Shown here piece by piece: positions 1 through 64,000 of a stretch of DNA of 64,000 nt. The notes beneath the pieces were generated by a model. It was not told where the DNA came from, did no database searches, and saw only the letters and a program-made list of their open reading frames with translations. The DNA comes from Tetradesmus obliquus (taxonomy: Eukaryota > Chlorophyta > Chlorophyceae > Sphaeropleales > Scenedesmaceae), in the NCBI GenBank assembly GCA_030272155.1, contig CP126199.1, positions 5,196,501 to 5,260,500 of the forward strand. Direction: 5' to 3'. Numbering within the stretch: position 1 is the stretch's first letter; each line of letters opens with the position of its first letter. A program made the position numbers and the translations under genes.

Positions 1-68
1 AAGTGCCTCTCCCAGCTGTGCAGTCTCCTGCCATGTTACATCAGCACTGCTATTGCCGCTGCCCTCAC

Positions 69-2833
69 CTGCCGCTCTAACATGAGCCGCTTTTGGCTGT
101 GCAGCGGGAAATTTGTCTGGAAGTCCTTGGCGTCCTTCACGTAGAAGTTCACGCCGATGCGCGCCGTCTGGAACTCCACTGTGAACTTTCCATCCTGCAC
201 CAGGCTGTAGCTGGGCTCCGAGGAGCTGCTAAACAGCGTGAGGCCCACAATCAGCAGCACCGGCAGCAGCTGCGGGCGGCCGCAGCAGCAACACCACCAC
301 AGGTCAGCAGTTGCTCAGCAGTCGACACGACTACAAGACACATGTGCCAGCTGTCAACGCTGCATGCCAACCAGTGGAATGCAGCAGCATCCAGCTGTAG
401 CTCGCAACATGCGCTGACAGCTGCTCTGCTGAAAACCACACAAGACCTCCGCCTCGTCCATGACCTGCACAACAAATAAAATATATAAAAATTCACCATT
501 GCTGCATAAAGCAGTAACAGTTACTGCTGCAGCGCAGCATAAACAATATATGATAATAGCACAGTTGGCTCACCTGCATGAGCCCCAGCATCGCGCCGCG
601 CTGCTGCTCCTCGCGGCTTGGCGGCCGCTGCTGCTGCGCTGCTTGTGCACGCTGGGCAGGGAAGCCGCCAAAGTGGCTGCGGAACACGCGCGAGTTGCCG
701 CCAAAGCCGCCGCCGCTGCGCAGCGGAAAGTCAAAGGCCAGAAAAGCATGACATGCATGGTGAGGTTGTAGCGCAGTGCAGCAGCAGCAGCAGCAGCAGT
801 GTCCCCAACAGGCCATGCACGTCACGCAGCACATACTCAAGGCAAGCAATAACCCACATGCACGACGTGTGCTAGTGACAGCTGACCTCCTGAGCTGTGC
901 GGAACTGCCGGCCTGTGTCCGCCAACACACACAAGGCAGCCAAACAGCGACAGCCACAGCCGTGACAGCTGATACACTTCATGTATGCGTGGTGACGCCT
1001 GCATGCAGCCTCACCCGAAGAACATGTTGAAGATCTCCTCTGGGTCAAAGTCATCAGGCCCGCTGTAGTAGTACTGCGCAGCGCTGGGCCCCCGCCGGCC
1101 TGACGACGCTGCTGCTGCCTGCGCTGCTGCACTGTTCTCGTACCCCGTCCTGCAAGCAGGAGACACACACAATTGCTTGGTGCGTTGTCAGGCGGCAGTG
1201 CACAGTGCAGGTGCCATACAAGAGCAGCCGTCTGCTTCGTATTGCTGCTGGCTGTGCCGCTGATACAAGATGTTGCTGTGGATCCAGTCTGCTAATATTC
1301 AGGCGGCAGCAGCTGCTGCCTCTCCTGCTGATGGCCCAGCCCCATATCATCCTCGCACGTCCCGCACCTGTCATAGTAGGCTCGCTTGTCAGCGCTGCTG
1401 AGGCAGCTGAAGGCCTTGCTGAGCAGCTTGAAGGCCTCGTCAGCATGCAGCGCCTTGTTCTTGTCAGGGTGCAGCCGCAGCGCCAGCTGCGGTGATGCAC
1501 ATATGTAAGACGCAGCACGTTGAAGGGCATGATGAGTGAACGGGTATCAGCACAATGACAGAAAGTCCCAGGTGAAGCTGCTGCTGAACAACGAATGAGC
1601 AGCCGGGCCAATACACGTGCCCGCATGCTGGCTCACGCATGTGCATGCATGCAGATGTACATGCATGCTGCACCACTTTGTGCCTTGCCTCCGGCCAAGG
1701 GCACGCACACGCATTACAGCAGGTCCGAGAGTGCTGTTGCACATACATTAGCGTGCAGCTGCACACACATACAGACGCGTGACAGTCGTAGGGGGGCGGC
1801 CACCACAATGCACCTGTCATCAGTGATCTCAGAGCGAGCTGCAGGACTCTAAAGCAAGCATGCACAGCAGATACCTGGCGCCCGCCTCCTGCATGAAAGC
1901 ACAGTTGGCTGGCACACAGTGGCTGTAGATATGCAATTGCACACGAGAAGCTGCACACTTCCCATCTGCAGCAGCTGTCCTCACCTTCCTGTACGCCTGC
2001 TTGATGTCTGCCTCAGATGCATCCTTCGGCACCCCCAGCACATCATAAAAGCCCTTGGCTTTCAGGATCTGCTGCACTACCTGCCGCTGCTCAGGCGTAA
2101 CAGAGGGGTCCTCCTGCACTGGCTTCTGCTGCTGCTGCTGCCTGTTGCGAAGGCCCTCACTGCCACCCATGCCACGCGGGTGCTGCTGCTGGCTGCTGCT
2201 GCCGCTATGCTGCTGATGTGAGTGCCGCGCACTATGATGCTGCTGGCTGTGCTGCTGTTGGCTGTGCGCCCGGTTGTGCTGCTGGTGCTGCTGGTTGTGC
2301 TGCTGCTGCCTGTGTTGCTGCTGGTGCTGGTCGTGGCTGCTGCTGCGGTCACTGTGTCCGTTGGCTGCTGCCGGGGCGGTTCTGCCATCGCGTGTCAATT
2401 CACTAATGAACACCTGAACCTGCAGCAGCATGCTTTCCGTCTGCACAATGGCAGCACAGTGGTGAACAGGGCAAACTGCATAAGCCATGGTCCCTTGAGT
2501 AGTTAACAGCCGCTGCTACATCAACAGCTACGCCACACAGCCAAATCGAGGACTGTTTGCTGCCAGGTGCAGAGCAGCACTGTGTAGGTTCATAGTTGTC
2601 CTGCAAGGGCTTCCGCACACTGTAGTGCTACAAGGCACAAGTGCAGCCATAAAGTATATGCTTGGCAGGCAGCTGTGTATGACAACGCAGAAGCCCACCT
2701 GGCTGCAGCGGTACAGCTTGTGTGCTTTTTGGCTGAACTTTTCAGCACGGACATGATCGCCTGCCCGCAGCGCTGCCTTGGCTATCTCCAAGCACTCAAA
2801 GGCGGCGTCGCGGTTTGCTATGCTTTCAGACAT
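69..2833 (-). CDS. DnaJ/DUF1977 co-chaperone (DNAJB12/B14 type), C-terminus off left edge
   Basis: Exons on the minus strand: 2833-2699, 2419-1985, 1486-1368, 1149-1015, 715-574, 269-69, then a GTGAGG donor leading out of the window; splice phases agree throughout. The N-terminus (MSESIANRDAAFECLEIAK) matches the short helical repeat that opens DNAJB12/B14 proteins. A long Gln/His/Ser linker follows. The J domain is FYDVLGVPKDASEADIKQAY plus LHPDKNK, so the HPD motif is intact and lies across the exon 2/3 junction. A Gly/Phe-rich stretch (FFGGGGFGGN) and a hydrophobic segment (LLPVLLIVGLTLF) precede the start of DUF1977 (YSLVQDGKFTVEFQT). Family knowledge: ER-membrane J proteins with a cytosolic J domain that recruit Hsp70 for membrane-protein quality control. 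No exon-edge duplicates were seen in this gene, unlike most neighbours. It is divergent from the SET gene. Confidence 0.88.
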
Positions 2834-4304
2834 GCTGTGCTGCACTGCCTGACGTTATTCAGACACCTGACACAAGCACCCAGCTGCTATGTCTCCTGTC
2901 TGTCCTGCAAACAGCAGCACTGCAGGGCCAGTACAACAGGGCATAGCAGCAACGTCAGTGTTTTGCTGGATGTAGCTGGATCGGATGCCCAACACCAACC
3001 CAAAACTGTAAAGTTTCATTACATGCATACATGAGGCGTATACACGCCAGCATGTCAACTAGGGCTGCTCCCAAGGTGAGTGCAGGACACAGTGTGCAGA
3101 TGGCGTGACCACTGGCGAACCAAAGCCAGCCGATGCATGGAAAACGTGCAAATGTATCATGTATAACATGGTGATGTAAGCAACAGCGAAACTGCAATGT
3201 GGAACGAACTGAGCGTGGTAGGCAGGGAACACCAGACAAGCGCGCCTACTATGGCAGCACCAGGTTACAACGCTGACCATCTGGATGTGCTGTTCTTTTT
3301 CACCTTTGAGCGTGCGAGGCTACCAGAAGCTAGCAGGTAGGACCGATGGATGAGCACGATGAAGGAACAAGCAAAAGGGAGTTGCACCTCGACGTCTGAT
3401 CAACAAGCCAGCGATCTGCTTGCAAACACTTGAACGAAAGACACCTGTAGTGCACACCAGTTACTCCTTCCAACTGACCAGGGACATGTGATACCATAAC
3501 AAGTTACTCAGCACAGGCTCGTGACCTCGTATGGCCTCATTAGCGCGTTATTGAGCGCTACCAACGTTGAAAATGGCGCATACTCAGCTCTCATAAGCAC
3601 TTGCTGCACATCATCAACAGCAGCATTGGCAGCAGCAGAAGCAGCAGCAACATGCATGTTTCACCAGCAGCAACACAGCTGCGACCTGCAGGGTACTTGC
3701 CAGGCACCCAGAACTGTCTGCCTCAACCTTTACCAGCTGTCCTGCAAACACGCGGTACGCCAGGAGTATGTTGCAGAGGTGCTCGTGCTCAGACGGCCGA
3801 CCTGCACGGATGTCCACACTGCGCATTTTACAGCCACTCTCACGCACACTTGCCTGTGAATCCCCTGCAGGTCCTGTGTCAGTTTGCAGCAGAAGCAGCA
3901 GCTGCAGACACCCGGTCGCCTGCAGCAGCAGCCAGAGTGACGCTGCAGAGTCAGCAGGTGCCAGCTGGCTGAGGTAGGATACCCTGCCTGTGCAATAGCT
4001 GCACAAGCCGCAGCAGCAGCAGCGGCAGCAGTTGCAGCAGCATCCTTGCTGGATTCAGTTCATCATGCACACAACTATGTGTTCATATCAACACACATTT
4101 CTGTTCAGATCAGCAACAGCTCATACTCTGCAGACTCGGCAGCCGCGAAAGCGTTGGTTGTGTTACTGAACATGCATGCTCACCATGTGCGTGAGTGTGC
4201 AAACTCGTTGTGCAACTATCATTCAACATGGTGTTGTATGTATGGTGAGTTTGTATCCTCATTCGTGTTGGTTGGTGGCGGTCTGACCCATAACCGTGCA
4301 ATGC
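2834..4304. other. Divergent intergenic region between DnaJ and SET genes
   Basis: No coding exon could be supported. Short CAG runs occur (3620-3650, 4010-4040). One or more 5' exons of the SET gene probably lie here, because its first recognisable exon has no upstream ATG in frame; a GTGAGT donor at 4250 is a candidate exon end but its phase does not fit cleanly. Confidence 0.5.
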
Positions 4305-7300
4305 AGAGACCGACAGTCTGCTGGCGGCCGCGGCAGGGGCAGCAGCAGCAGCAGAGGCAGGGGCGGCGGCAGGGGTGCAAGCAGCGGCAGGGGCCCAGGC
4401 AGCACTAGGCCATCAGCTGACCAGCGCAGCAGCAGGGGTGGCGTCAGAGGCAGGGGCAACGGCGGCGGCAGGTCTGGCGGGCAGCGCAGGCAGCAGCTGT
4501 CTGATGCTGACAGTGATGCAGCAGCACAAGCAGCAGGAGATGCTTTCAGCACTCCCAGCAAAGGCTGGGGCTACCGCAGCGGGTACATCCGGTACCCCGA
4601 CGGGTATGACGCTGACAACCGCGATGATTACAACAGTCAAAGTAACAATGACGAGGATGACGAGGATGGTCCAGAGTTTGACCGCCGGCGCAGCGCCAGA
4701 AGCAGGGACAGCAGCAGCAGCAGCAGAGGCAGGGGACGCAGCCCGCCCTCTCGCAGAGCAGCAGCAGCAGATGCGGATTCAGGTGCCTCTGATTTTGTGG
4801 TGATTGGCAAAGCTGAATCGGGCTCCTACATGCATGCACTGTCAGAGCTTGAGGGCAAAGAAGGTGGCAGCTTCTGGGAGTCTGCTGTTGTGGATGATGA
4901 AGAAGAGGAGGAGGAAGAGGAGTATGAAGACGGCGGTGAAGATGAGGAGGAAGATGAGGATGAAGTTGGCGTGGAAGGTGGGCGGGAAGTTGAGCGCCGG
5001 GTGACACAGCGATTAGCACGCATCCTGGTTGTTGTTTGGCAGCTTGTCCCCGAAGCATGGCATGCACGGTTACTTTGCAATCGAGCAGCACACAACTTGT
5101 ACATAGCTCACCTCTGAGCTCTGCAGATGTTGTCCAGGTTCACCTGCTCTCTTGCGCTGCCTTTGATCATTGCTTCTTGCTGTTTGCCCTTGCTGCTGCG
5201 TCTACTGCACTGCAGAGGTTGCCAGCCTTATGCGAGAGCTGGCAGAAGGGCTGGGAGACGAGGAGGAGGAGCAGCAGCAGGGGCAGACGCAGCCGGCAGC
5301 AGCAGCAGCAGCAGCCTGGCGCGCCTGCTACATCAGCCGCCAAGTTCCAGCACCACAGCTGGGACCTGTGGCACTCAAGGCAGCACCAGGTGCGAGGCAT
5401 GCTCATATTCAATGTGAGACTGAGTCATTTGGATATGGCCTCAGTTACCATGGGGTGAATGCATTGTTTGTAAACAGCAGGATGCAGGTGCCCAGGCTCT
5501 AGCTGTGATGTGTGTTGCGACAGGCAGGTGTGTTGCAAGAGGTGCCCAGGCTCTAGCTGTGATGTGTGTTGCGACAGGCAGGTGTGTTGCAAGAGGTGCC
5601 CAGGCTCTAGCTGTGATGTGTGTTGCGACAGGCAGGTGTGTTGCAAGAGGTGCCCAGGCTCTAGCTGTGATGTGTGTTGCGACAGGCAGGTGTGTTGCAA
5701 GAGGTGCCCAGGCTCTAGCTGTGATGTGTGTTGCGACAGGCAGGTGTGTTGCAAGAGGTGCCCAGGCTCTAGCTGTGATGTGTGTTGCGACAGGCAGGTG
5801 TGTTGCAAGAGGTGCCCAGGCTCTAGCTGTGATGTGTGTTGCGACAGGCAGGTGTGTTGCAAGAGGTGCCCAGGCTCTAGCTGTGATGTGTGTTGCGACA
5901 GGCAGGTGTGTTGCAAGAGGTGCCCAGGCTCTAGCTGCGATGTGTGTTGCGACAGGCAGGTGTGTTGCAAGAGATGCGCGACACAGGGACATCAGTCGTA
6001 CGCGCAAGCACAGGCTAGCAGGCAGTGCTTTGCGCGCTGCTTTGCGCAGTGCTCGTGCTGCAGCACCTTTTTAAGGCTTACTGAAAATGCTGTATAACTT
6101 TTCCCGCCACACTGCTTGCCACACACTTTCTGCGCTTGCAGGAAAGGGCCGGGGCCTGTTCACAACTGCTGCTGTTGCTGCTGGGGACCTCCTGCTGGTG
6201 GCCCAGCCGCTGGCGCTGCTGTACTGTGAGGAAGGCACCACACCTGAAAACGAGGAGCTGGCTGAAGCACTGGCAGCAGCAGCGGCAGCAACAGCAGCAG
6301 CAGCAGGAGCGCAGCCGGCCAGCAGTAGCAGCAGCAGCGGCAGCAGCGGCGGAGGGCTGTCGCTGTGGCAGCAGCATGCGCTGCTGCAGCTGCGGGCGAC
6401 AGGTGAAGGGCCGGACACTGCTGCTGTGGATCCGCAGCTGCTGCAGCAGCTGCTAGGAGACCCTGCTGATGTGATAGCAGCTCCACAGATTGACCAGGCC
6501 AGCAGCAACAGCAGCAGTGAAGAGGCGAGCACGCAGCAGCAGCAGCAGCAGCAGGTAGCGCCACTGCCGCCGGCCAGTGCTGCTCTGCCGGGTGCCGACA
6601 GGGTGCTGCAGATTGTGCATGCCAATTGCACAGGTGAGGCTGACGCAAGCCGCAGTGCTTGGGCTCTGTTTTTTGTGCTTGATGCCTCTCAGAAGGGACC
6701 TTTGAGATACAGCCATGCAGCTGCTGCTGCAGCTCAGGCTCAATCGTCGCACGGTGACACAACAGCAGACAGATGCACCAGGTGTCTGGTTACAGCCCAT
6801 CCGTTTTGAGCGATTGGTGCAGTGTGTGCACATGTGCAGCTCCACACGCATGTATTGCTGCAGCATTGAACGCCATCTGTCCAAAAAGTGACACCCGACA
6901 GTGGTACCCTGATATTTTGCAGGTGAAGAGTTTGAGGATGCAGCACTTGCGCTGCTGCGTGGCAGCACCAGCTGCGGCCATTTGGGCGTGTGGCCTGCTG
7001 CAGCCATAATCAACCATGCTTGCTGCCCCAACGCACACGCGCTGCTGATAGGAGACAGGCTGGTGAGCAGCTGTCATATCAGCCCATGCCTTAGCTACAA
7101 GTTGTTCTGGCTGCGCGGCACACCTGTCTTGAGATCAACACACTGCAAGCACGCTAAGCGTTGTCATGTCAGCCCATACCTCTGCTCCACTTTTTTGGCT
7201 GTGCAGCACACCAGGCGCCGCCCCATCCACACACCTCGTCATGTAGGCAGCAATACGCCATGCACTTGCCCAAGCATACACAAACACACGCACACACGTC

Positions 7301-9113
7301 CTCGCATGCCCTGCGCTGCAGGTGGTGCGTGCAGCGGAGGACATTGCTGCAGGGCAGCAGGTCACCCTGAGCTACCTGGGGCCGCAGCTGTTTGCGCCGG
7401 CGGCAGTACGCCAAGAGGAGCTGCGGCAGCAGTGGGGCTTTGACTGTGGCTGCGCCAGGTGGGTGCGACACAGCCAACATGAACACATGTGTCTGTGGTG
7501 TGATTATTGCATGAGGTGCATGATGAGTGCGCTCAACCATTGAGAACGTATTCTACATCCAGGGCTCGACACACCACAAGCAGCGACTGACAGGCGCTTC
7601 TAGAACCTGTTGCATCATGTTGCAAGTGATCTGCTGTTCAAAACATATGGCCCCTGTCTGTCATGATGCAGGTGCAAAGCAGAGGCACGCTACGCCGGCA
7701 GCAGCAGCAGCAGTGAGTCAACAACACTGTCGCAGCTGCTCATGGACACATACACTGCCTGCCAAGGCATGGCAGAGCAGCTTGATGAGGCAGTGGATGA
7801 AGATGATGCAGAGGCAGTAGCAGCCATGCAGCAGCAGCTGCAGGGGATGCAGCAGAAGGTGGAGGCAGGCATACGCGCAGCAAAGCCGCCCGCCAATGTG
7901 CGCCGGTGGCTGCAGGTATGTCTGTCGAACGGCGTGCATGCCACGTTCAGTCACTGATTCATCACAATCAGCATATCCCAGTAGCATTGGGCACTTGGCG
8001 CACAGCCAGGGTTGGTGTATTCAGTTGGCAGTTGTGCGCACAGCTTCACTGAGATGGAGCTGCTGCTTTTTGGCTGAAGTTGGCTCACAGCGTCTGCTGT
8101 GTGGCTTCTGTTTCACTTTTGATGCTGCTGCTGCCGCCGCTCCTGCTGCTGCTTCTGGTGGTGTTACGTCCATTTGGATTTTTCAAACCACGCCAAAAAG
8201 CCACGCCAAAAAGCCACACAATTCCAGCAGCATCTGCGCCGACAGCTGCTACATTCTTCAGAACACACAACTGTTGCTGCTGCTGCTGCTGCTGCTGCAG
8301 GCCTCAGTGTACGATCTGTACGACCTGCTCAGCCTCTGCGCCGACCAGCTGCCCGCAGCACCACCCAAAGCAGCAGCCAGCGGCAGGCGCGGCCCAGGCA
8401 AGAAGCAGCCTGCAGCTCCCGCAATAGAGTCGGAAGCGCTGGCGGCTTGTGCGCGCATTGTGGGGGCCGTGACGCCGGGCAGCAGCGCACATGCAGACTT
8501 GACGACTGAGTACATGGTCAGGTGGGTTGTGCTGTTCTGCGTGTGCTCTACGCTTCTTTGTGCTGCGCTGCATGCGCATCCGCATGCGCATGCGCATGCG
8601 CTGTTTACTGGCTGTACGTCAGGTTATCCAGCCCTCATCATTACGGCTATGGTGCGCTTGCATTTCTCCTCTCCCGTCAGTGACAACCCGTTCATCTGCA
8701 CTCCACCTGCGGTGGCTCGTCCTTTCAGAAGTATTGACTGGTGCTGCATGTTTGTAGTCGGGGCTTTCTCGTAAACAGTGTGGAACGAGGCATACTCGTT
8801 CTTTGATTGCGTGCGTGTGCATTTGGATGTATGTGCTGCAGGACTGAGGCCCGCTTTGGTGAGGGCTACCAGGAGGCTGCAGATGCGCTGCGCATGTGCC
8901 TGACATGACTCTCAAAACATTGTTTGTGATTTGCATGTTGTGTGTGCGTCTGATTTGCGCCGCAGGTCTGAGGCCCGCTTTGGCGAGGGGCACCAGGAGG
9001 CGGCAGATGCGCTGCGCATGTGCAGCGCAGCACATGTAGCTCGCTACGGGCCCATCAGCAAAGGCTTGCTGCAGCTGCTGATGGACACGCGTGCTGGCGC
9101 AGCGCTGCTGTGA
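4305..9113 (+). CDS. SET-domain protein with RG-rich acidic N-terminal extension
   Basis: Exons: about 4305-4977, 5216-5389, 6142-6633, 6923-7062, 7322-7458, 7672-7915, 8301-8521, 8966-9113; phases match at every junction. The N-terminus carries RG/RGG repeats (GGRGRGSSSSRGRGGGRG) and a long Asp/Glu tract, typical of RNA-binding or nuclear proteins. The SET domain is split: the opening GKGRGLFTTAAVAAGD at 6142, a low-complexity Ala/Gln/Ser insertion, then INHACCPNA (AdoMet-binding NHxCxPN) at 7010-7030, VTLSYLG, and a post-SET-like Cys cluster WGFDCGCARCKAE. This places it with SMYD/ASHR-type lysine methyltransferases, but no MYND finger is seen. The C-terminal part is helical. The start codon is unresolved. 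The last exon exists in several tandem copies, and its TGA overlaps a possible GTGAG donor, so a further 3' exon cannot be excluded. The substrate is unknown. Confidence 0.8.
5488..5972. repeat. 54-bp minisatellite, nine near-identical copies, inside SET-gene intron 2
   Basis: A 54-bp unit beginning GTGCCCAGGCTCTAGCTGTG repeats nine times with almost no divergence; the last copy is degenerate. It lies wholly within the 5390-6141 intron. Because 54 is a multiple of three and the unit lacks stops in several frames, long artefactual ORFs run through it on both strands. Each unit contains CAGGCAG followed by GTGTGT, which resembles adjoining acceptor and donor sites. Confidence 0.97.
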
Positions 9114-9367
9114 GTTAAACCTCTGAGATGCTGCAGATCTGCCGAGAGTTCACCCGGCTGCACGTGGTGCGCTACGGGCCCATCAACAGGGGGCTGCTGC
9201 AGCTGCTGATGGACACGCGGGCTGGAGCAGCACTGCTGTGAGTAGTTCACTGAGATGCTGCAGATCTGCTGAGAGTTCAGCCGGCCGCATGTGGTGTGCT
9301 ACGGGCCAATCAGCAAAGGCTTGCTGCAGCTGCTGATGGACACGCGCGCTGGAGCAGCGCTGCTGTG
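8842..9367 (+). repeat. Tandem copies of the SET gene's last exon
   Basis: The exon start at 8966 (CAG then GTCTGAGGCCCGCTTTGG) has an upstream copy at 8842-8901. The exon end (encoding RYGPISKGLLQLLMDTRAGA) at about 9045-9113 recurs at 9160-9240 and 9295-9367. The three ends all read CTGCTGTGAG, so TGA stop and GTGAG donor are both conserved. Copies differ by scattered substitutions. Confidence 0.9.
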
Positions 9368-10637
9368 AGGCAGATGCTTACAGATGTGCTGTAGTTCTGC
9401 TGCTGTTTGTGGATGCGGGCATGATGAGGCATTCTCGGGTGCATCGGCACGCGGCAGCTTGATGCTTGGTGCCGGCTGCTGCATGTTCTGGGTTGGCTGA
9501 TGTCATGTGTGGTGGTAGCTGCGTTGAGCGCTCCATAGGCTTGATGGTAAACAGCGATCATCTCTTGCTTAGCTCTCTTGACTCATTGAATGAGCCCCAA
9601 GAATGTAACTGAGGTTTGTCAGTGATTTGCTCGACCAGATGAGCCTCTTTTGGCTTTGATTGTGAGTGGGCCTGCTGAGCCCCTATGACTCTGCTGTTGG
9701 TACAGGATGCCGCTTAGCACAGTGCTGGTGCTGATGATGGTTGCAGTGGATGCCGCTTAGCACAGTGTGTGCTGTTTGCGCTTGATCTTGATTAGATCTT
9801 GCTTACTTACAGATGTCATCTCAGTGCTTTCTGGACCCCACGAGCCTTGTCTGGCTCCTTTGTGGGTGGGCCTGCGGCCCTACTTTGGTAATTGGTGATT
9901 GGCAATTGGTAACTCTATCAAGGGCCCGTACTGTAGGTGCACAAGGCAGGTGCATTGCTGTGCACACTTGACACGCACAGAGGCGGCAACCTGTTCAATG
10001 AGAGAGAGGTCTGTTACAGGGGTGGGCAAGCTATCGCCCTAGAGCGAGTCACTTGCCCCTCTTTCAGCTCACATATCATGAGAACCCGATAGCAAGCCAC
10101 AAGATGCAACCAAAGTAAAACTCCAGAGGCATCTTGCAGCCCCTACCTCCCCATAAACCAACAAGTACATGCAGTGCAGCATGTGCGAAGTGCAGCACGA
10201 AAAGCAGCAGGGTGCTCAAAGCACAGGGCACAAAACGCACAAGGGAAGGCAGGCATGGTCCAAACAGCAAGCGGGATGCACAACGGTGCTGCTTACCATA
10301 GGTGTTCGGCATGATTGCACCAAGGCACTGCTGTACACACCAGACTGCAGCAAGCAGGAGCACGCGGGACCGACAGGAGACACTGCATGTGACATGCAAA
10401 CTAAGGTGCTACTGCTTCTGCAATCCTCATGGCTGACAAGCACAGAAGCACGCAATGCGACACACAGAGCTGAAAAATCAAGCACAGTGACACACGACAT
10501 GCAACATGGCCTTGCCAGAAAGTGGAAATTGGACAACTACTGACAGCACATCATGTAAAAGCAGGAAGGTCAACCAGAGCGGGGCACCAGTACAATGCGC
10601 AGCTGTGCTGGATCAGATCGCAAGAACGGGTGATCTT
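9368..10637. other. Intergenic region, no gene recognised
   Basis: No conserved coding exon seen. Near 9690-9770 a short segment containing GGATGCCGCTTAGCACAGTG is present twice in tandem. The AT-richer stretch 9880-9920 repeats TTGGTAATTGGTGATTGGCAA-like words. Confidence 0.5.
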
Positions 10638-24158: not shown

Positions 24159-24194
<36 letters not shown>

Positions 24195-29574: not shown

Positions 29575-29884
29575 TTAGGGCCCCGAGTCCCCTTCGCTGC
29601 CGTCCTTGGCCTGCTCCACCAGCTGGTCCTGCGCCTCGATTACCCTGCTGATGGCGCGCTTGCTGGGCTCCTGCAGCTCGCCTGCAGCAGCAGCAGCAGC
29701 AATATGAGGGTGATGCCTCACTGTACTGCTGGAGCATTCATCAGTGCTGGTGTGACAGTGCACAGGACTGGTGTTTCAGAGAGCAGGCATCACGAGGCGC
29801 AAACCTCGTAGGCCATGTTGTGATCTGGCTACTGCTGCTCACCCTGCTATGCACGTGTACCAAAACCTCAGTCATGTGCCAGTG

Positions 29885-37831: not shown

Positions 37832-37862
<31 letters not shown>

Positions 37863-40376: not shown

Positions 40377-40428
<52 letters not shown>

Positions 40429-40430
40429 AC

Positions 40431-40469
<39 letters not shown>

Positions 40470-52900: not shown

Positions 52901-55900
52901 CAGGCCTCACCTCAGCTGCTGTGAACTTGTTCAGGCATGCCTCAAAAGGCACCACAGGCAGCACAGGGGACTCCGCAGCTCCCGACTTGACGGCAGCAGC
53001 AGCAGCGGAAGCGGCAGCAGCAGCGCCTCCTCCGCCGCTGTCGCCTGGCAGCAGCACCACACTGGCTGCTGGGTCGCTGGTGGCATCTAGGCTGCTGTCT
53101 GCGCCAATGTATGCGCTCGCCTGCGGTGTAATGGGGCAAGAGAGTGAGTTCAGCAGAGCTAGTTAATGGTCCTACTCTACTCGACAGGTTCAGCGGAAAG
53201 AATGGTTGCGTCAACTTTTGTGACAGGGATGCAGTCTGGTGTGCTTGAGGGCGCAGTGACGCGTGTTTTCTGCAAACCATGCCCGCAAATGTATCAAGGG
53301 GCATAGCCCATGCAGTGCTGAAACAGCCAACACAACAGCAACCCACACACCTAGCATGTTGAAGTCATGCTGTACACCCTGGCCATGGAGACGCCACATG
53401 AGCCTCAGCACCTGGTTCAGTCAGCCAGACAGCAACACAGCGCTGTGCCATGCATGTCCTGCCTCGAGCCACTAGCTGCAGCAGGCTGAGCTGCAGCACG
53501 CGTGCATGCACGCTGTCCATCCAGATAACGCACCTGCTCCTCCTTGAGCCGCTGGCGCTTGGCCTCTCGCTCCTTGTAGGCTGCCACGGCCTCCTTGTTG
53601 GTGGCAGCCTCCAACGGGATGTGCAGCTCCAGGCTGGCAGCCATGGCGCGCCTGCAGCAGCACAGTCATGGCAAACACGATGCAGGGATAAGGTACATAA
53701 GAATGACAGGTGAGCTGGCAGGCACTCAGCCCTGTAGAAGGTGAGTATTGAAAGCAGGGCTTCTGCTGCAGCTCAGGCAGCTGCTGTGCTCTGATTTGAG
53801 AGAGGATAGTTACATGTGGGTCCTGGCACCATCCTAGATGGTATGAGCCCCAACAGGTTGAATGCAAGGTCTGAGACCAGAAAGGAGAGTGAGCACCGTG
53901 CACACAACACAATGCACACCCTTGAACACCAAATCTCTCATGGTGTATGGGCTGCTGTTTGTACTCGAGCTTTTGAAGAGTGCTGCTATGGAGCACTCTC
54001 ACACGCCCCTGCATTCTCAGGCAACATGCGGTTGAAAGCAGTCAGAGTGCTGCAGTCGCAGCAGCAGCAGCGCTCACCTGTAGCTGACTGCACTGCTGGT
54101 GAGGCACTGCCCCAGGCACGGAGGTCATGCAAGGCATGCAGTCAGACTAACTGTGTCCTGTCCAGCAGCTCACCTGTAGCTGACTGCGCTGCTGGTGAGG
54201 CATTGCGTGCGGTACTCCAGCTGGAAGCCAAACACAGAGGGGGTGAGCGCCTGCACACATCACATGGCACAACATAGGTTACAATTCATACGTCAGACAC
54301 ACGAGGCATCACAGCCTGCACAACGTGAAGCCAAATTTGAGGGCGTCAGCGCCTGCAAGTTATTGGCAAGAAGGCCACCAGCAGCCTCTGATGAACAGCT
54401 CGGCAGTGTCAGGCATCAATGCATGCACCAGATGGCAGCATATGATGTGCTGATAGCAGCTGCAGCATGATGCAGGGTGAGTTGCAGACGACATTGATGC
54501 ACGTGGGTATGCGGCACAGGTCAGTGCATGATGCTGCATGATACGATCAACCAGCTGCAGCACGAGGCGAGATGCATGATGCGTCACCAGCTGCCAGCTC
54601 ACCTGCTGCTCTCCTAGCCCGAGGCGCGCTGCTGCTGCATGCTCGCTCCTGCTGATCAGCTGCAGCAGGTGCGTCAGGTACTCAGCAGCATCCTGCAGCA
54701 GCAGCAGCAGCAGCAGCAGCACAAGCGTTGGTACGCAAGTTAGCAGCGCCAGGTCACATCGTGCTTTGCAGGCACTTGCAGCAGGACCACCAGCAGACAA
54801 ACACCAGCAGGCTCTCAGTAACACTGCATGGCACCACCGCAAATCATCTGGGTTACGGCAACAAGCTGCATGACACGCAGCAGCAGAGCCAGCCGCAGCA
54901 GAGCCAGAGCAAACACGCCGCTTGTCAGATTACAGCAGTAACAACCTCAAGCACGCCTCACCTGCTGCCTGCCAGAAGAGTACTCAGGGTGGCCCTTGCC
55001 CACAAGTGCCTTGAAGGCAGCAGGCTGCACCCAGCGAGGCTTTATTGGCACGCAGCAACACAGCCGGGCGCACGGACCCACCCCCTATAACAGCAGAACA
55101 GCAACAACCTCAGCATGCCTCACCTGCTGCCTGCCAGAAGAGAACTCGGGGTGGCCCTTGCCCACAAGTGCCTTGAAGGCAGCAGGCTGCACCCAGCGAC
55201 GCTTTACGTGGCACACAGCAAAACAGCCGGGCGCACGGACCCACCCCTATAACAGCAGAACAGCAACAACCCCACCACGCCTCACCTGCTGCCTGCCAGA
55301 AGAGAACTCGGGATGGCCCTTCCCAACCAGAGCCTTGAAAGCAGCAGGCCGCACACTGTTTGCCTCCTGCAGCTCACTGCCAGCAGCACCACCACCCAAG
55401 CTTGCTGCATCCTGAGGCTCGCCTGCTGCACCTGCTGCTGCAGCAGCAGCAGCTGCACCGGCTGCTGCATCCACAGCATCTGTCTCCATAGGATCGGACT
55501 CTGCTGCGGCTGCAGGTGCAGCAGCAGCAGCATCAGCAGCGGCTTTGGGCTTTGGTGGCGGCTTGCCTGTGCGGCCGCTGGTGAGAGCTAGGCCGACTTT
55601 GGCCATCTGTGTTGGCAGGTCGCCTGCTGCATCTGCTGGGGCGCTCTCAAAGATGGCTGGGGCAGCAGCCGCGTAGCGCTGCGCCACCTCTGGCAGCGAG
55701 AACAGCACCTGCATTCATGGCAGTCGACAATAAGACTGAGCAGCAAGGAAGCTGTTGATGATGCAGCTGTTGCTGAGGTTGCATAACACCAACTTGCAGT
55801 GAAAACGACTAGCACCTGGCAACCCTACGCACGCACCTGCAGCATGAAACCCCTACGCATGCACCTGCAGCACGCTGTTGATGTATGCATAGCCCAACTG

Positions 55901-58900
55901 CTCTGCAGCAGCCGCCACGCGCATTGCAGCACGCTGTGCATGTAGGAGCTGTTGCCCAGGCTGCTTCAACCACTTTACAAGCCAGCGTCAGACACATTAG
56001 CAGCTTGCCCCAGCCACGCACCTGCAGCACGCTGTTCATGTAGCAGCTGTTGCCCAGGTTGACGAGGCCCACGTGGCCCGGCCCTGCCAGCTGCGTCAGC
56101 TGGGCACCCGCCTCCGTCAGCGCAGAGAACTCGTAGGCCACGTTCATGTCAATCTCCAGCTCTGCCATGGTCTTGGCGGTCTTCTCCATCTACAGGTGAA
56201 GTGCAAAAACAATTGAGAATGAGGAGATGTAGCCACAGCACATATGTGGAAAGGCCACGATCATGTTGAGCTCCAGCTCTGCCATGGTCATATGTCAGCG
56301 CTTCTGATCTATTCATGCAAACATAATCACTTGCTTATGATCCGATGGCATCAACAAATGAGCACTCTCACCTGCATCATGTTGATGCCCCAGTGCGCCA
56401 GGTGTGCTGCCAGCTTTAGGTCCTGCACCACATCATCTTCATCAGGCGCGTAGCTGTACACGTCAGCACCGCTTGGCGTGATGTTGCCCAGCTTTACCAA
56501 CAAGAACACACGATATAACTCAAACATACAGCACCAGCATGTGGCATTTCGGCAGAGGGTACAGTGACATAAACAAAACAAACCAACTCTCGACGGAAAA
56601 AAACATTCCCACCTGCATCATGATTATGCTCCAGTGCGCCAGGTGTGCCGCCAGCTTTAGGTCCTGCACCATATCATCTTCATCGGGAGCGTAGATGCAC
56701 ACGTCAGCGCCTGAATGCGTGATGGTGCCCAGCTTGACCAATGATGTTTGAAATATATATACCCCCAAAGTTATACCCAAAACAAACAACACAAAAATGT
56801 GATGTTCATCTGCCAATGGTCATTGTTACAAGGACGAAAACAACATCAATCAACAGTTGACGGAAAACCACTCCCACCTGCATCATGTTGATGCCCCAGT
56901 GTGCCAGGTGTGCTGCCAGCTTTGAATCCTGCACCATGTCGTCCTCATCAGGCGCGTAGCTGTACACATCAGCGCCTGAAGGCGTGATGGTGCCCAGCTT
57001 GACCACCAGCGGGTACTTGCGCCCCGTGGCCTCAAAGTGGCGCAGCGCAGAGCCATTGCCGCCGCTGCCATCAGCAAACTGCAGCAAGGCACAGTGCAAT
57101 ACATAGAAGCCAGGTGCAAGTCAGGTGAGTGACAGGGGCCGGCACAGCATGGTATGTGTGGTGCTTGCCAGCGATGTGCCCCATGGACAGGTTGAGCCGC
57201 AGGTGGAATGCGCTGAAGGCGACACCTGAATTGCCATAACACCACAACAAACATAACGCAACATGTGCTGACCTGGCGGCCCGAGCCGATGTGTCCCGTG
57301 GACAGGTTGAGCCACAGGTTCTCTGTCACGCCTGTCTCATCGCAGCGCCAGTCAGCAGGGTTGGGGCTGATCTTGCGGCCGCTGTCCAGCTGGGGCAGGC
57401 CCTCGGCATACCTGGCAGCAGCAGCAGCAGCAGCAGCAGAAGCAGCAGCAGAAGAAGCAGTGGAAATGAGCAGGAACCGAGACGACACCAAACATTTTCT
57501 TCATGCAGCATTTTATCAAGCAAAGCATGCAGCCTCACCTGGCGCGCTGCTGCACACAGCTTAGCTGGACACAGGTGAGCTGCATGTAGCTGACTGCACT
57601 GTGCCGCTGGTAGCTTGTGCATATATGCATGCATGCACACCTGGCAGCAGCAGCAGCAGCTGCAGCAGCCAGCTCACCTGCTCACGCGGCGCTCCTCCTC
57701 CCAAGCAGACACCGCCTCCTGCTTGCTGGCGTCCTCGTGCGCCTGGCACACACAGCAGCACAAGTCACAAGTTCATCAGTCTGTGAACAGCGGTGCACAG
57801 CCAGCCGCACAATGCGCTTGCTGGCGTCCTCGTGCGCCTGGCGCACACAGCAGCACACGTTACAAGTTCATCAGACGCTGAACAAAAGTGCATACCCAGC
57901 CGCACAATGTGCTTGCTGGCGTCCTCGTGCGCCTGGCACTCACAGCAAATGAGTCACAAGTTAATCAACTCAGTACGCAATGAAACGTCAGACATAAGTT
58001 CAGAGTGGACCACCTACATGTTTTTGCAACCATGACTCACCTGGATTGCGTTGATGACGTTAATAACAAGCTCAGGCAAGTCAGCACACGGCAGATCCAC
58101 ACGCAGCCGCGGCTGGCCGGCCCCTTGCAGCACCACCAGAGCTGCGGTCTTGTCCAGCGTGTAATCTTTCTGTGGCTCAACCGCAAAGCCGCCCTCAGTG
58201 CCCAGCGCAAGTTTGGTGGGCTTTGAGGCGGCGTCTGCTGCTGCTGCCGCTGCCGCTGCTGCCAGCTCATCCTCTGGAATAGGTACCTGGGAGAGTTTGA
58301 GGTTTGTGTGCAGATGCAGGATACCGGCAAGGCAGTGGCAGAAGTGAGACAGATTGTGTGGCAGAAATTGGGGGGTTATCGGCGTGTGTGTGAGCGAGTA
58401 TGCTGTTATGTGTGCCCTGCAGGTGGAGTTACACTTTATCGCTCCACTGCAGCAGCGCTGCAGGCCGCATGGCTATTGCTGCTTCACGCGACCCTGCTGC
58501 TGCAGCGAGCCTGCTGCATGCCGTCTCCAGAACACCTTGCAGGAATCATTGCCGTGTTGGCTGTTTCCTGCCATGCATGACTGTCATGCTGCTTGCAGAA
58601 AACTCTGTGGTGCTGTTGCCACCTGCACACATTGCAGACCGCTGCAATAACAGCAGCTGCAGCACCCAGCCGGCCCATCAGTGTGCGCACCCGTTTCCAC
58701 AGCAGGTGTAGGTACAATGTACTGCCTGTCTTGCGCTGGTCAAGCTCCACATAATCCTCTCCAAAGCCCTTGCAGGAAAGCAGCAGTCGACAGGGACACA
58801 ACAACATTGGTCAAACCCCAGTCAAACTTCAGCAACCTAATCAACATTATGGCTGCTGCTGGGCGGGCCAGCGACTGTTGTGTACAGCAGCAGGAGCAGC

Positions 58901-59392
58901 AGATGATGCGGCATGCACTGCTTCCTTGGTGTCAGCAGGGCAGCAGGAGGCGAGATCAGGAGAGCTGTACTGCTGGAAAGCTGTTTTGCACGTCAGAAAT
59001 TGCCATGCATGTAGTTACAGCACAGCTGCTGCTCCACAAGCGATCCACAAAGTGTTAATGAGAGCACAGCAGAGCGAACAAACATGGCACAAGTGCAGCT
59101 GCTGCCCCCGGCAGCAATGCATACCCTGATCTGCAGTATTGAGATAGGAAAGACTAAGATCAGCGCTCAAGCTGCCTGCTATGCCGAATTTGAGCGATGC
59201 CCCTGCCTCCCCCCTTCCTTGCTGTTCACACACCTGCCATGTCTTCAGGTTGACATAGAGCCCGCCTGGAGACTCCGGCGTGTCATACGAGTACATGCAC
59301 TCGTTTTTATAGACCTTGTCGAAGTGGCCTGGCGCCTGCAGGCCCCGCATGCCTGCCCGGACCTTGTCCAACACGTCTTCGGCAACTGCCAT
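49977..59392 (-). CDS. UBP14: Ubiquitin-specific protease UBP14/USP5 (isopeptidase T)
   Basis: Eighteen exons: 59392-59234, 58768-58691, 58286-58041, 57742-57678, 57411-57273, 57078-56878, 56189-56022, 55708-55286, 54692-54603, 54220-54174, 53651-53534, 53120-52911, 52565-52445, 52180-51941, 51538-51396, 50829-50630, 50430-50328, 50087-49977; 953 residues, phases all agree. Order: N-terminal variant UBP region ([14 protein letters not shown]), ZnF-UBP (TENLWLNL), Cys box [13 protein letters not shown], a long Ala-rich insertion in exon 8, two UBA domains ([27 protein letters not shown]), His box [10 protein letters not shown] and WVIFNDEKV. The family disassembles unanchored polyubiquitin by recognising its free Gly-Gly end. 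Catalytic Cys, His and Asn are present. Three of the four ZnF zinc ligands are replaced, a clear departure from the family. Introns carry about thirteen exon-edge duplicates. Confidence 0.95.
50885..51130 (-). repeat. Duplicates of UBP14 exon 16 (UBA2) start
   Basis: The acceptor and codons [18 protein letters not shown] of exon 16 (50829) recur at about 50885-50953 and 51065-51130, with a degenerate fragment near 51010-51045. Acceptor CAG/GTGTCC is retained in both full copies. Confidence 0.93.
54957..55200 (-). repeat. Two duplicates of UBP14 exon 8 end
   Basis: Codons for [19 protein letters not shown] and the CAG/GTGAGGC donor (parent 55286-55350) recur at 55119-55200 and 54957-55040, with flanking intron sequence, forming ~160-bp tandem units. 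Confidence 0.94.
55855..55962 (-). repeat. Two duplicates of UBP14 exon 7 end (catalytic Cys box)
   Basis: Copies at 55920-55962 and 55855-55895 encode [13 protein letters not shown] and [12 protein letters not shown] in place of the parental [13 protein letters not shown]: the catalytic Cys is lost in both. The nearer-to-end copy keeps the CAG/GTGCAT junction. Confidence 0.88.
56370..56740 (-). repeat. Two duplicates of UBP14 exon 6 end
   Basis: About 120 nt encoding [20 protein letters not shown] through [10 protein letters not shown] plus the donor (parent 56878-57003) recur at 56610-56740 and 56370-56496, both open in frame and followed by GTG donors. Confidence 0.95.
57165..57225 (-). 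repeat. Duplicate of UBP14 exon 5 end
   Basis: Copies the codons LNLSTGHIG as LNLSMGHIA within the following intron, ~100 bp from the parent. Confidence 0.8.
57812..57933 (-). repeat. Two duplicates of UBP14 exon 4 start
   Basis: CCAGGCGCACGAGGACGCCA (acceptor and AHEDASK codons) occurs at 57722-57745 (parent), 57812-57843 and 57905-57935, spacing about 90 bp. Confidence 0.92.
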
Positions 59393-60777: not shown

Positions 60778-61878
60778 ATGGGCTGTGTCAGCTCCAAAGG
60801 GGAACAGCAACCGGGACCATCTGAAGTAGTCACTGCAAACCACGCAGCAGTGGCGGAGCTGGCCGCCTGCATAGGGAGCAAAGCAGCTGCAGCAGCAGCG
60901 CCAGAGGCCAGCACAGACACTGGAAAGCATCACCATGAGCAGCGTTGTGTGCAAGCTGCTGCACATGCAGACAATACGCCAGCCAGAGATGCCACTGTTG
61001 AGGCTGACCAGCATCAGCATCAGCGGCAACAGCAGCAACAAGAGCAGCAGCAGCAGCAGGAGGCAGCAGGGCAGCAAGCCGAACCAGCGCAGCCGGCAAC
61101 CTCTGCCATGACTGTCATCCGCAAGGTGATTACAGTCAGCCATATCTGCAGGGCTCACTTATATTTGGTGCCGCACAGTATATGCTGTGCGCCCACAGCT
61201 GCAGTAGTTGAACCTGCGGAGGCTACTGCAGATGGTCAACAGCAGCAGTGGCAGAGCGAGCAGCAGCAGCCTCATGCAGCGCGCAAGCAAACTTGCAGTG
61301 CAGGAGCATGAGTGACATGCACACACCAGTGGCTTGCAGTGCGCCAAGCATGCCCGAGCAGCGGCAGCAGCAGCAGTTGTTTCCGTAGCACAAGCGTCTG
61401 TGTGTCATGCTGTGTCTTCTGGTGCATGCGGGGCCAGGGTTACATGCACACTCGTGCTCCCTGCAACCGCAACAGCGTCATGTGTAGCTTTCCGCGGTGG
61501 CAATGGCAGCGTGCAGCTGGAAGCAGCAGGAAGCAGCAACGTAGCAGCTGGCGGACGTCTGTGCAAACAATAAATGGACACCCCCTCTTGCCCACTACAA
61601 CCTGATAGCCCAGCGCTTCGGTCTGGCAATGCTGATGCTGCACTGTAGTTGCTGCCATGCTCACTGCAGTAGGTGTCTCGTGCGGGCCAGCGTACCGATG
61701 CAGGGACTGCATCTCATCTGCAGGGAGAACAGCTGGGCCACCAACTTCGCTGTGCTGCACTGCTGCTGCTGCTGCTGCTGCTGCAGGCCAAGGCAGTGAT
61801 GCAAGAGCTGCATGCCATCTGCGGGGAAAACAGCTGGGCCACTGATGCTGATGCTGTTACTGCTGCTGCTGCTGCCAC

Positions 61879-61913
<35 letters not shown>

Positions 61914-63334
61914 AGGCCAAGGCGGTAATGCAGGAGCTCCATGCCATCTGCGGGGAGAACAGCTGGGCCACCTGCTGCCAAGCAGCGCAGGTGCTGCAGC
62001 AGCAGCTGATGGACGTGACAGCAGTCAGGTGCGGCGCGATCTTTGTGGAGCAGAATGCATGCATGTGGCAGCGATTGGGGGCTGCTGCAAATGTGGCGAG
62101 GAATGTTGCGGCGCTGTGGTGTACTGAAGCAGAGGCGCATCGAGTGCTTGATGCTGCAGGTGCTGGTTGTAGCCGTTTTGTGTGGGCCTTGCAGCCGGGT
62201 ACGTGCTGCAAGCGTTGCCTTGCATCTGAACCGCTTTCTCCCATTCCTTGCTGCACCCTTGCCTGCTTGCTATCACTACCACTCTTGACCTACATCGCTT
62301 GCTCTTCTGCTGCCTTGCTGCGTGCTTTGCGCCCTGCAGCATTGCTGCACAGACTGGCAGCCCAGGCACATGCATTCTAGCCGGCGCATATGGGCCTGGC
62401 GCAGAGTGGCAGCAGCATCAGGTTTTCATGTCGGGCGCCCACTGGTCGGCCTGTGCATGCCTGCAACATGGCAAGCCGCACCTGTACCGCACAGGGTCAC
62501 CCGAAGCAGCAGCAACAGCAGTAGCAGATGAAGTGTGGCCGCAGGTACGGCTAAATAATCTGCGCCTTGCAGGAAAGCGTCCGCAGGCACATGCAAAGCA
62601 GCATCAGCAGCAGAACGTCGCAGCAGCCTGTCAGCAATGAAGAAAAGCAGCGCACGCAGCGCATGGGATCCGCCAACATGCTTGCACTCCAGACAGGAAG
62701 CACTACCACTGCAGCAGCACCGCCCATCCGCAGCTGCATTGCTGCTCCCGATGCCCCATGCTACTGTGCAGTAAGTGTGCGTTGGAAGCGAGCTTCAGAC
62801 AGTGCTCTCCTCTCTATGCTGCACTTAATTGCTGCACTGTTTTTGTGCTGCTGGCAGGACTGGGCCTATCTGCACAAGGAGCACGGCCTGAGCACCTTCC
62901 TAGCAGTGCGCATTGCTGACGCTCACGGCCGGCCGCTGGGCGTGCTGTGCCTGGCTTCAACTGCCACCGACGCATACCAGGAGGAGTGGTGCGTGGCCAC
63001 TGCTGCTGCTGCTGCCTAGTGTACTGTACTGCTGGTGTGCATGAGTCTAGCGCGCTGGTGGTTGTTAGCTCTTCTGTGGGACACAAAGCACTGCAGCCAT
63101 GTCACTATGGACTGTGGCCTGTCCACATGAGGGACAGGACAGGACAGGACGTGTTCTTGGGGTGCATGATGCTGCAGGAGGCAGACGCTGCTGAGCATGC
63201 CTTGCTTCGGCACAGCTCTGCCGCCCATCCGCTGCTGCTGCTCCTGCTGCTGCTGGTTGCAAAACGCAGGTGGGAGCCGCTGCTGAGCATGGTGTGCACC
63301 AGCTTGGCCAGCCTGCCTCTGCTCACCCCTTGTC

Positions 63335-63380
<46 letters not shown>

Positions 63381-64000
63381 GTCTGCTTCAACCACTGCTG
63401 TTCAGGTGGGAGCCTCTGCTGAGCATGGTGTGCACCAGCCTGGCGAGCCTGCTGAAGAGCCCCGTGATGGCCGGCCTGGCAGAGCTGGCAGGCTGCCTGG
63501 TGGACACGCGCGAGGAGTTCAGTACACTGGCCAAGGCCTTCATCCAGGTAGGTTTCTGAATAGTATGCAGGCAACATAGTAGGTGTGTTGTTGGTATCTG
63601 TGCATGGGGTAGGGTGTGCCTGGTGGACACGCGCGAGGAGTTCTCCACGCTCGCGAAAGCTTTCATTCAGGTGCGCGCTGCTGCCGCTGGGCAACACTGC
63701 GCTGGTGTTCATGCATGTGGCAGCGTGTGGCAGTGTGTGAGGAGTTCTGCTCACTCGCGAAAGCCTTCATCCAGGTGTGCTGCTGCTGCTGCTGTGTTGT
63801 GCATGCTGCCTTGACATGTGGCATGTATACATGTGTTAGTGAGCAGGCGCATGGCGATGTGCTGCCAGCCATGCTGCAATGGCTGTTCCCTGCATATGCC
63901 AGTGCCTGCTTTTCCTTTCTATCCCTTCCTCTCACCTTTTGCCGTGCCAACGCCGCGTATTGTTGATGCCGCAGGGCTCGGCAGCACTTGTGGAGGCGGT
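60778..64000 (+). CDS. N-myristoylation-motif protein with GAF-like region, 3' end off window
   Basis: Starts MGCVSSKGEQQ: Gly2 with Ser6 fits N-myristoylation and Cys3 fits palmitoylation, implying membrane attachment. Supported exons: 60778 to about 61120; 61916 to about 62200 (AKAVMQELHAICGENSWAT, LQQQLMDVTAVRCGAIFVEQ); about 62364-62543 (CILAGAYGPGAEW); 62573-62770; 62858-62988 (LSTFLAVRIADAHGRPLGVL); 63406-63547 (WEPLLSMVCTSLASLL); 63975 onward (GSAALVEAV). Junctions from 62543 on agree in phase. The segments RCGAIFV...VRIADAHGRPLGVLCL...WEPLLSMV look like a divergent GAF domain. In green algae such N-terminal arrangements can precede protein kinase domains, but nothing here shows one. 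Exons between 61120 and 61916 are unresolved. Edge duplicates flank the 61916 and 63406 exons. Confidence 0.6.
61695..61850 (+). repeat. Two duplicates of the 61916 exon start
   Basis: Codons for QELHAICGENSWAT recur at about 61693-61740 and 61787-61850; the second has the full CTG-tract plus CAGGCCAAGG acceptor context. Confidence 0.92.
63265..63330 (+). repeat. Duplicate of the 63406 exon start
   Basis: CAGGTGGGAGCCGCTGCTGA and following codons (LLSMVCTSLASL) precede the parental acceptor by ~135 bp, separated by (CTG)n. Confidence 0.92.
63618..63778 (+). repeat. Two duplicates of the 63547 exon end
   Basis: Codons for DTREEFSTLAKAFIQ and the CAG/GT donor recur at 63618-63671 and, shorter, at 63735-63776. 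Confidence 0.93.

Follow-up and report, generated by a model that had tools for sequence, protein, structure and literature searches.

The stretch of 64,000 nucleotides from the green alga Tetradesmus obliquus considered here (the window; contig C9, positions 5196501-5260500) raises the question of why the edges of exons, together with their splice sites, recur in the introns that adjoin them. Such copies, which we refer to as exon-edge echoes, had been described in an earlier note on this DNA and were ascribed there to repeated local tandem duplication across exon-intron junctions, tolerated as long as one intact copy is still spliced. Our analysis of the DNA of one assembly, comprising 104.66 Mb in 17 contigs, confirms that the echoes are real and exceed chance expectation. 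They follow a strict rule of placement, with exon starts copied upstream and exon ends copied downstream, and may reflect exon-anchored tandem arrays that evolve in concert.

Exon edges recur in adjoining introns

A comparison of the window with itself (blastn, E≤1e-3, dust filter on) detected 83 same-strand pairs, of which 75 are local (less than 3 kb apart), and 5 inverted pairs, all local. In 20 stretches fetched from the assembly we found 283 direct and 4 inverted local pairs, compared to none in their dinucleotide-shuffled copies.

To relate these pairs to exons, human proteins were used as guides in spliced alignments to eight CCT genes on eight contigs, to the LWD1/DCAF7-like WD40 gene of the window and to a truncated AP1S. 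The CCT loci were found in a Pfam chaperonin search, where neighbouring matches covered overlapping profile positions, and their models come from this one method; seven of the eight guides aligned over nearly their full length and CCT3 from residue 56 on. As the aligner forces GT/GC-AG ends and penalises stop codons, the canonical exon ends and open frames of the models provide no independent evidence. Exons below 45 nt were dropped as alignment noise (below 50 nt for the UBP14 and LWD1 echoes in Table 1). The following counts refer to nine genes, the eight CCT genes and LWD1; UBP14 was left out and AP1S contributes no pairs.

Among 212 local direct pairs in these genes, an exon start was copied upstream in 66 and an exon end downstream in 75, always in the same orientation and as claimed before, whereas the reverse placements, a start copied downstream or an end copied upstream, were not encountered (0 and 0). 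The remaining pairs were confined to introns (62), connected two exons (2) or lay inside exons (7), and no whole exon was copied, in line with the previous impression that such copies are almost absent. Random placement in the same genes would give about 17 starts copied upstream, 17 ends copied downstream, 9 of each reverse kind, 107 intron-only, 25 exon-exon, 24 exon-inside and 5 whole-exon pairs. The share of edge pairs among edge and intron-only pairs thus amounts to 0.695 compared to 0.324 at random (standard deviation 0.036, maximum of 1000 draws 0.461). Since pairs within arrays are not independent, they were collapsed to 81 repeat families, 77 of which touch an exon or the echo of one; from the purely intronic four, one ends 2 nt from an exon. 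The equal abundance of duplicates away from exon edges, which the earlier note had named as the outcome that would speak against its claim, was therefore not found in the modelled genes, where such duplicates are far rarer.

The rule is equally evident when each exon is compared to its own two introns, which over 100 introns yields 163 same-strand matches and a single reverse one. Upstream copies begin at the first exon base in 62 of 77 cases and downstream copies end at the last exon base in 64 of 86. Of the 200 splice edges, made up of 100 exon starts and 100 exon ends, 65 are accompanied by at least one copy, 34 of them starts and 31 ends. Because a selected exon keeps its echo recognisable for longer, which might produce an edge bias by detection, we have masked all exons and the exon parts of all echoes. 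In 27 of the 40 intron pairs that remain, both copies lie no more than 60 nt from an edge of the same kind; 10 pairs are mixed, and in 3 neither copy is attached to an edge. The bias thus survives the removal of exon-derived sequence. No echoes were found on either side of the ends of the coding sequence, which are not splice edges, in 10 genes in which some of these ends are approximate.

Anatomy of the echo units

In an echo unit, an exon part that is 20-101 nt long, or 159 nt in one case, is combined with an intronic spacer; shorter exon parts would escape detection. In 147 units the spacers have a floor of 43 nt at starts and 36 nt at ends, with medians of 69 and 81 nt, and their length is uncorrelated with that of the exon part (-0.16 and 0.06). 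Unit lengths fall within 95-150 nt in 107 of 147 cases and otherwise between 69 and 260 nt, two units above 260 nt being set aside; the previously noted period was about 90-250 bp. There is no preference for multiples of three (51 of 147). In the counts of unit length, echoes per edge, splice dinucleotides, flanks, breakpoints and array order, echoes ending farther than 2-16 nt from the edge were dropped. Up to seven echoes accompany a single edge.

The splice sites are kept, as had been claimed: GT is found at the projected position in 68 of 72 end-echoes and AG in 58 of 67 start-echoes, with 24 echoes that end farther from the edge set aside. Identity at the donor positions +1 to +5 is.96,.97,.94,.65 and.92 and falls to.39 at +6. 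The branch-point-like motif T[AG]AC shows an enrichment in 97 introns at 30-70 nt before the AG, a zone that coincides with the floor of the start spacers; for the floor of the end spacers no such reason is at hand. Echoes as mini-exons with both splice sites appeared plausible in two arrays; the idea was rejected by eye, as among the entries listed end-echoes are not regularly preceded by AG, nor start-echoes followed by GT. Among the same entries some echoed exons, judged by eye, start with GT, as would be needed to rebuild a donor at a ratchet site of recursive splicing, and many do not.

As anticipated, echoes go together with longer introns. In the 99 introns of this count, which excludes AP1S and UBP14, length is described by a base of about 337 nt to which each echo adds 125 nt (r 0.74); echoes are present in all 30 introns above 620 nt and in 3 of 21 introns of up to 300 nt. 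Recognisable units cover 20,954 of the 51,929 intron bases of the nine genes. Longer exons carry more echoes (rank correlations of 0.32 and 0.35). Both kinds of echo occur together in 23 introns, one kind in 15 and 20 and none in 41 (p=0.012). Around single exons, 24 of 90 internal exons have both (p=0.005) and 31 have echoes on one side only, and the numbers of start and end echoes per exon correlate (0.37).

Divergence and organisation of the arrays

Alignments at edges show an identity of.908 in the exon part and of.821 in the intron part. In 49 alignments that hold both, introns differ by 22.3% and exon parts by 4.2, 4.1 and 18.1% at the three codon positions, and comparisons between echoes give 6, 7 and 19%. 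Neutral drift of an echo beside a frozen exon cannot produce such values. Context-dependent mutation was rejected as source of the third-position excess, since its relative neutral expectation is.21/.20/.22; allelic divergence preceding duplication, in a very diverse or hybrid species, could account for part of the excess at free sites.

The intron flank of the echo is related to that of the real edge in 49 cases, unrelated in 57 and intermediate in 35, and the third-position divergence of the exon parts is nearly equal in these classes (17.3%, 17.7% and 19.9%). This near-equality would fit homogenised exon parts and could equally result from selection. For 37 of the 67 echoes nearest to the exon, homology with the echo flank extends over the entire spacer (z≥4); it is doubtful in 13 and does not do so in 17. 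Plain tandem duplication across the exon-intron junction, as previously proposed, is therefore real. The same matching spacers led us to reject a copy of exon part and splice consensus without flank as the general state at birth, a state that does fit the outermost copy of the array described below. From rank 1 to rank 4 along arrays, the relatedness of flanks stays flat (.28,.23,.26 and.27). Related outer flanks enclose an unrelated one in 11 of 174 triples, which come from 5 of 35 arrays, 6 of them from a single array. Flank types are thus interspersed and not graded.

A fresh array in stretch L021 (Table 1), in what by eye looks like a GTPase gene, consists of identical exon heads and spacers, with the splice consensus kept. 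Between its outermost flank and the spacer no homology could be detected. One spacer was searched against the genome and gave at E≤10 two matches, both within the array and none outside it; a comparison of the array to a phage collection gave no match and is uninformative.

Splice-site usage in the D1 protease gene

The question of which copy is used could be addressed in the only echo-bearing gene with a known protein. The product of this gene on contig C3 equals the solved photosystem II D1 protease 1fc7, a protein of Scenedesmus (Tetradesmus) obliquus, at 385 of 387 residues, with two differing, which places the genome in this species or in one very near to it. The query was joined by eye from open frames and then confirmed by spliced alignment of the chain. 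The start of exon 6 is echoed upstream of it with an intact AG (Table 1). The echo is absent from the solved protein, which contains the sequence of the exon once, and the innermost site is therefore the one used in this gene. The earlier note had supposed that the outermost or innermost intact copy is still spliced, and in this instance it is the copy contiguous with the remainder of the exon.

Distribution in the window and beyond

The features of the window and the two arrays outside of it are collected in Table 1. LWD1 with 9 and UBP14 with 16 echoes, all on the same strand, are the window genes whose models are based on homology, and for these the previous assignment of echoes stands. It is not confirmed for AP1S, where no local pair was found between 27.5 and 34.2 kb, and for the remaining genes named there it depends on an ab initio model. 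This recalibrated model placed 86 of 91 donors and 85 of 91 acceptors correctly when tested by leave-one-out on eight genes, and it overpredicts up to about twofold, with 28 predicted compared to 13 real exons (≥45 nt) in CCT1, as expected if echoes create cryptic exons. By this model, 32 of 37 families in the other window genes touch a predicted exon and an intron, compared to 17.2 when labels are shifted. The prediction at 29575-38335 swallows AP1S and thus merges at least two genes. A GDSL gene had been listed as free of echoes; the GDSL gene at about 22.4-24.7 kb contains local duplications, although the numbering of these genes in the earlier note cannot be mapped onto ours.

Table 1. Echoes, local duplications and host genes in the window and in two further stretches.
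Feature	Position	Strand	Remark
LWD1/DCAF7-like WD40 gene	39580-44263	+	Spliced alignment of human DCAF7
LWD1, nine confident exons	39580-39642, 39975-40053, 40507-40597, 41166-41265, 41559-41663, 42356-42486, 42832-42949, 43269-43400, 44140-44263	+	
LWD1, echo of end of exon 40507-40597, downstream	40674-40701	+	86% identity
LWD1, two echoes of start of exon 41166-41265, upstream	40960-40996, 41066-41098	+	92%, 82%
LWD1, echo of end of exon 41166-41265, downstream	41316-41360	+	89%
LWD1, echo of end of exon 41559-41663, downstream	41728-41761	+	91%
LWD1, two echoes of start of exon 42356-42486, upstream	42045-42090, 42222-42267	+	83%, 91%
LWD1, echo of start of exon 42832-42949, upstream	42724-42766	+	91%
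LWD1, echo of end of exon 43269-43400, downstream	43603-43658	+	96%
UBP14/USP5-like gene	49995-59314	-	20 model exons ≥50 nt; spliced alignment of human USP5; zf-UBP_var domain
UBP14, two echoes of start of exon 57678-57742, upstream	57816-57837, 57910-57932	-	100% over 22 and 23 nt
UBP14, two echoes of end of exon 56878-57078, downstream	56372-56502, 56613-56740	-	87%, about 130 nt each
UBP14, three echoes of end of exon 56022-56189, downstream	55751-55781, 55865-55885, 55925-55963	-	
UBP14, two echoes of end of exon 55286-55400, downstream	54962-55030, 55124-55192	-	87%, 90%
UBP14, echo of end of exon 54174-54250, downstream	54078-54110	-	94%
UBP14, echoes of start of exon 50695-50829, upstream	50899-50951, 51024-51046, 51075-51125	-	
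Local duplications, predicted gene 4176-9760	8832-9369	+	Spacing 124-128 nt (and 255); SET-like per earlier note
Local duplications, predicted gene 13798-22194	13879-16505	-	Spacing about 95-143 nt and multiples; GDSL-like per earlier note
Local duplications in and beside GDSL gene 22363-24738	22116-24015	+	Spacing 115-145 nt and multiples
Dense local duplications, predicted gene 29575-38335	34261-37581	-	Spacing 99-130 nt and 265
Array within predicted gene 29575-38335	36212-37403	-	4.7 copies of about 253 nt
Local duplications, GAF-like gene	61681-63794	+	Spacing 101-130 nt and multiples; weak Pfam match, below cut-off
D1 protease, echo of first 48 nt of exon 6	L038 5749-5796		85% identity, intact AG, 91 nt upstream of exon 6
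Fresh array	L021 2627-2959 (C1:3002627-3002959)	-	54-nt exon head in three identical copies, 83-nt spacer in two

The predicted gene at 4176-9760 gave no Pfam match in the two open frames searched, and the one at 13798-22194 none in the single open frame searched (18982-19473). Early in the former, at 5486-5977, nine near-identical 54-nt units (99% matches) differ from the echoes in period and identity. At 26131-26467 and 28072-28384 many CTCCGGAGT-like palindromes occur in tandem units of about 119 nt, which have inverted partners at a distance of about 2 kb and look like a separate repeat or mobile element. A minus-strand open frame of 444 codons at 10673-12007, outside of the ab initio predicted genes, has no Pfam match.

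In other gene families, a scan of six Pfam families (229 match rows in 59 gene clusters, in some families scored for the best candidates only) revealed 17 contained echoes in 10 clusters, 10 of them start copies upstream, 5 end copies downstream and 2 deviating; two are matches of echo against echo. Local direct pairs were found in fetched stretches of all 17 contigs, not all of them at exon edges. For 14 arbitrarily placed stretches the ab initio model was the only source of exons. In stretch L026 a laxer setting gave 11 pairs, each of which touches a predicted exon, in one case only one of 12 nt; in L031 and L034 there are duplications that touch none. An array in L022 (7957-9686), with spacings of 297 and 447 nt and about 77% identity, is unlike the echo units. 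Echoes are not universal, as had been noted: there is none within the gene span of CCT6, whose introns are short (120-410 nt), and 4 of the 14 arbitrary stretches are without any pair.

Origin and maintenance of the arrays

The explanation we consider best, with a confidence that falls a little short of even, is that of exon-anchored tandem arrays evolving in concert. In a first step, a local duplication would extend across a splice site, breaking on one side within the exon and on the other no less than about 40 nt into the intron, at acceptors beyond the likely branch point. This is seen in many nearest copies and would apply to the others as a general origin. The protein thus stays unchanged, as a complete splice site is left to the copy that is contiguous with the remaining exon. 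In a second step, the shared exon part would serve as substrate for unequal exchange or gene conversion, with the selected real exon acting as a master that cannot be lost, so that the exon parts would remain similar. The spacers in the introns would meanwhile diverge and, as cassettes, undergo duplication, deletion and shuffling. In a third step, contraction of the array would turn a former echo into the real edge. Each echo would then have served for a time as the functional splice site, so that its GT or AG, its branch-point region and its coding sequence would have been kept fit, while recent damage is tolerated. Purely intronic duplicates would decay, as they have no conserved master, and arrays would consequently accumulate at exon edges and introns grow outward.

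The proposal draws on the rule of placement and its persistence under masking, the scarcity of purely intronic families, the spacers that match the echo flank, the floor of spacer length, the kept splice consensus, the divergence by codon position and its near-equality beside related and unrelated flanks, the interspersed flank types and the fresh array in L021. Several observations weigh against it. Its exchange steps are read from footprints in the DNA of one assembly. The absence of echoes at the ends of coding sequences is accommodated only by an added argument about untranslated regions. Frameshifts are found in 22 of 163 echoes, the length of 33 of the 34 indels in exon parts is not divisible by three and some codons have changed to stops, so many echoes are without current coding constraint. 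In the youngest echoes, polarised changes show a third-position excess (13/12/32 compared to 19/18/20, p=0.003), to which changes in the exon lineage may contribute. The best identities of start and end echoes of the same exon are uncorrelated (rho -0.26, p 0.20, n=26). In the arbitrary stretches the excess at exon edges is weak (15 of 29 families compared to 11.8 expected), and the duplications in L031 lie where no gene is predicted at all. Finally, the fresh array in L021 does not amount to a simple tandem duplication of the locus as it now stands and requires either homogenisation of exon heads or a first event that brought a new spacer.

A related possibility, which we regard as open to considerable doubt, is that of rotating splice-site cassettes. 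Here, recombination in the exon part would swap which intron-side cassette, consisting of branch point, tract and AG or of the donor and downstream intron, serves the exon, and introns and splice sites would turn over next to fixed exons. Each intron would in that case store a reserve of tested spare splice sites.

It is unlikely that the echoes are neutral debris, where tandem duplications of about 70-260 nt arise anywhere and those spanning splice sites are tolerated and stay recognisable for longer, as only the echo drifts. The ratio of exon to intron divergence of about 1:2, the growth of introns by about one unit per echo and the loss of 13 of 139 GT/AG dinucleotides, close to the expectation from 5% change per base, are all in accordance with such a process. 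However, the observed edge share exceeds all of the random draws and the bias persists with exon-derived sequence masked, the ratio of 18% divergence at third to 4-5% at first and second positions is too high, and the relatedness of flanks is independent of the divergence of the exon part. The mechanism of the earlier note, random tandem duplication with tolerance, is thus borne out with respect to duplication but is not sufficient: it predicts intron-only duplicates to be the commonest kind, which are almost absent, and it does not predict that codon-position and splice-site signatures are kept beside unrelated intron sequence.

A function in splicing, where extra donors and acceptors with exonic enhancers would aid recognition or the stepwise removal of long introns, appears improbable. 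It would account for the splice consensus kept beside unrelated intron, for the presence of echoes in all long but few short introns and for the association of start and end echoes in introns and around exons. Yet, long introns would trivially contain echoes if these lengthen them, units show no preference for multiples of three and the echo in the D1 protease gene is skipped despite its intact AG. Moreover, 35 of 58 echo-bearing introns hold only one kind of echo, and inside-out stepwise splicing of nested sites can therefore not be general.

We find it harder still to believe in nested insertion, in which a copy of an exon with its flanking intron was inserted into the middle of the exon, leaving the outer halves as echoes and the inserted copy as the real exon, although it would explain both the absence of whole-exon copies and the targeting of exons. 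Among the 26 exons with both kinds of echo, the end of a start-echo and the start of an end-echo are no more than 8 nt apart in 13 (6.5 expected in one shuffle, p=0.0003; 8.0 in another shuffle, p=0.005), but there is no excess at tolerances of 4 and 6 nt (6 and 7 of 26, p 0.2-0.45). The uncorrelated identities of start and end echoes, the 31 of 90 internal exons with echoes on one side only and the spacers that match the echo flank throughout, as expected from plain tandem duplication, equally speak against it.

An assembly or sequencing artefact is hardly credible since, apart from the one fully identical array in L021, where a misassembled repeat is possible, nothing argues for it, the divergence of most copies ranges from several percent to 30%, all 17 contigs have local direct pairs in their fetched stretches and an echo-bearing gene matches a solved protein.

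The arrays make a source of intron growth readable in sequence. In addition, about a third of the real splice sites tested have decoys that are close to perfect, set in native exonic context and for the most part no more than a few hundred nucleotides away, which amounts to a natural experiment on site choice by the spliceosome. In light of the overprediction of exons described above, annotations of such algae may list exons that do not exist.

Relation to known systems

In tandem exon duplication, the source of mutually exclusive exons, a whole exon is copied together with both splice sites. The arrays share with it the local, direct and exon-derived nature of the intronic copies and differ in that none of the 212 pairs contains a whole exon; the suggestion that echoes seed mutually exclusive exons or new introns has found no evidence. 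Minisatellites and other tandem repeats evolving in concert show a tandem period, interspersed unit types and a repeat part that is more alike than its flanks. All of these properties are found in the alga, where the arrays in addition include one conserved coding exon edge and are bounded by a splice site.

The account of a potato RNA-dependent RNA polymerase gene describes a single tandem duplication of the 3' end of an intron and the start of the following exon, with putative branch site, pyrimidine tract and AG, which gave rise to a new intron with a recruited donor (PMC4974935). This is the same kind of DNA event as one start-echo, although the account concerns a single gene and a new intron, whereas in the alga no new intron was seen and starts and ends are copied, multiple times and in many genes. 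Tandem genomic duplication is an accepted route of intron gain, in which the duplication of an exonic segment with AGGT creates both sites of a new intron (PMC3443670). Common to that model and the alga are the local direct duplication, a product that is spliced out and an unchanged protein; in the alga existing introns are enlarged, as judged from echoes that sit between exons aligned to homologues. Introners likewise involve the repeated making of intron sequence across a genome, but insert their own copies into many genes (PMC9860276), whereas the one spacer searched here is confined to its own array and old introns have grown. No account of arrays at splice edges as a genome-wide feature was found among the matches listed from open-licence PMC papers, judged by title or the opening of the abstract. 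Single duplications across exon-intron boundaries are known; unusual in this alga are their scale and the strict rule of their placement.

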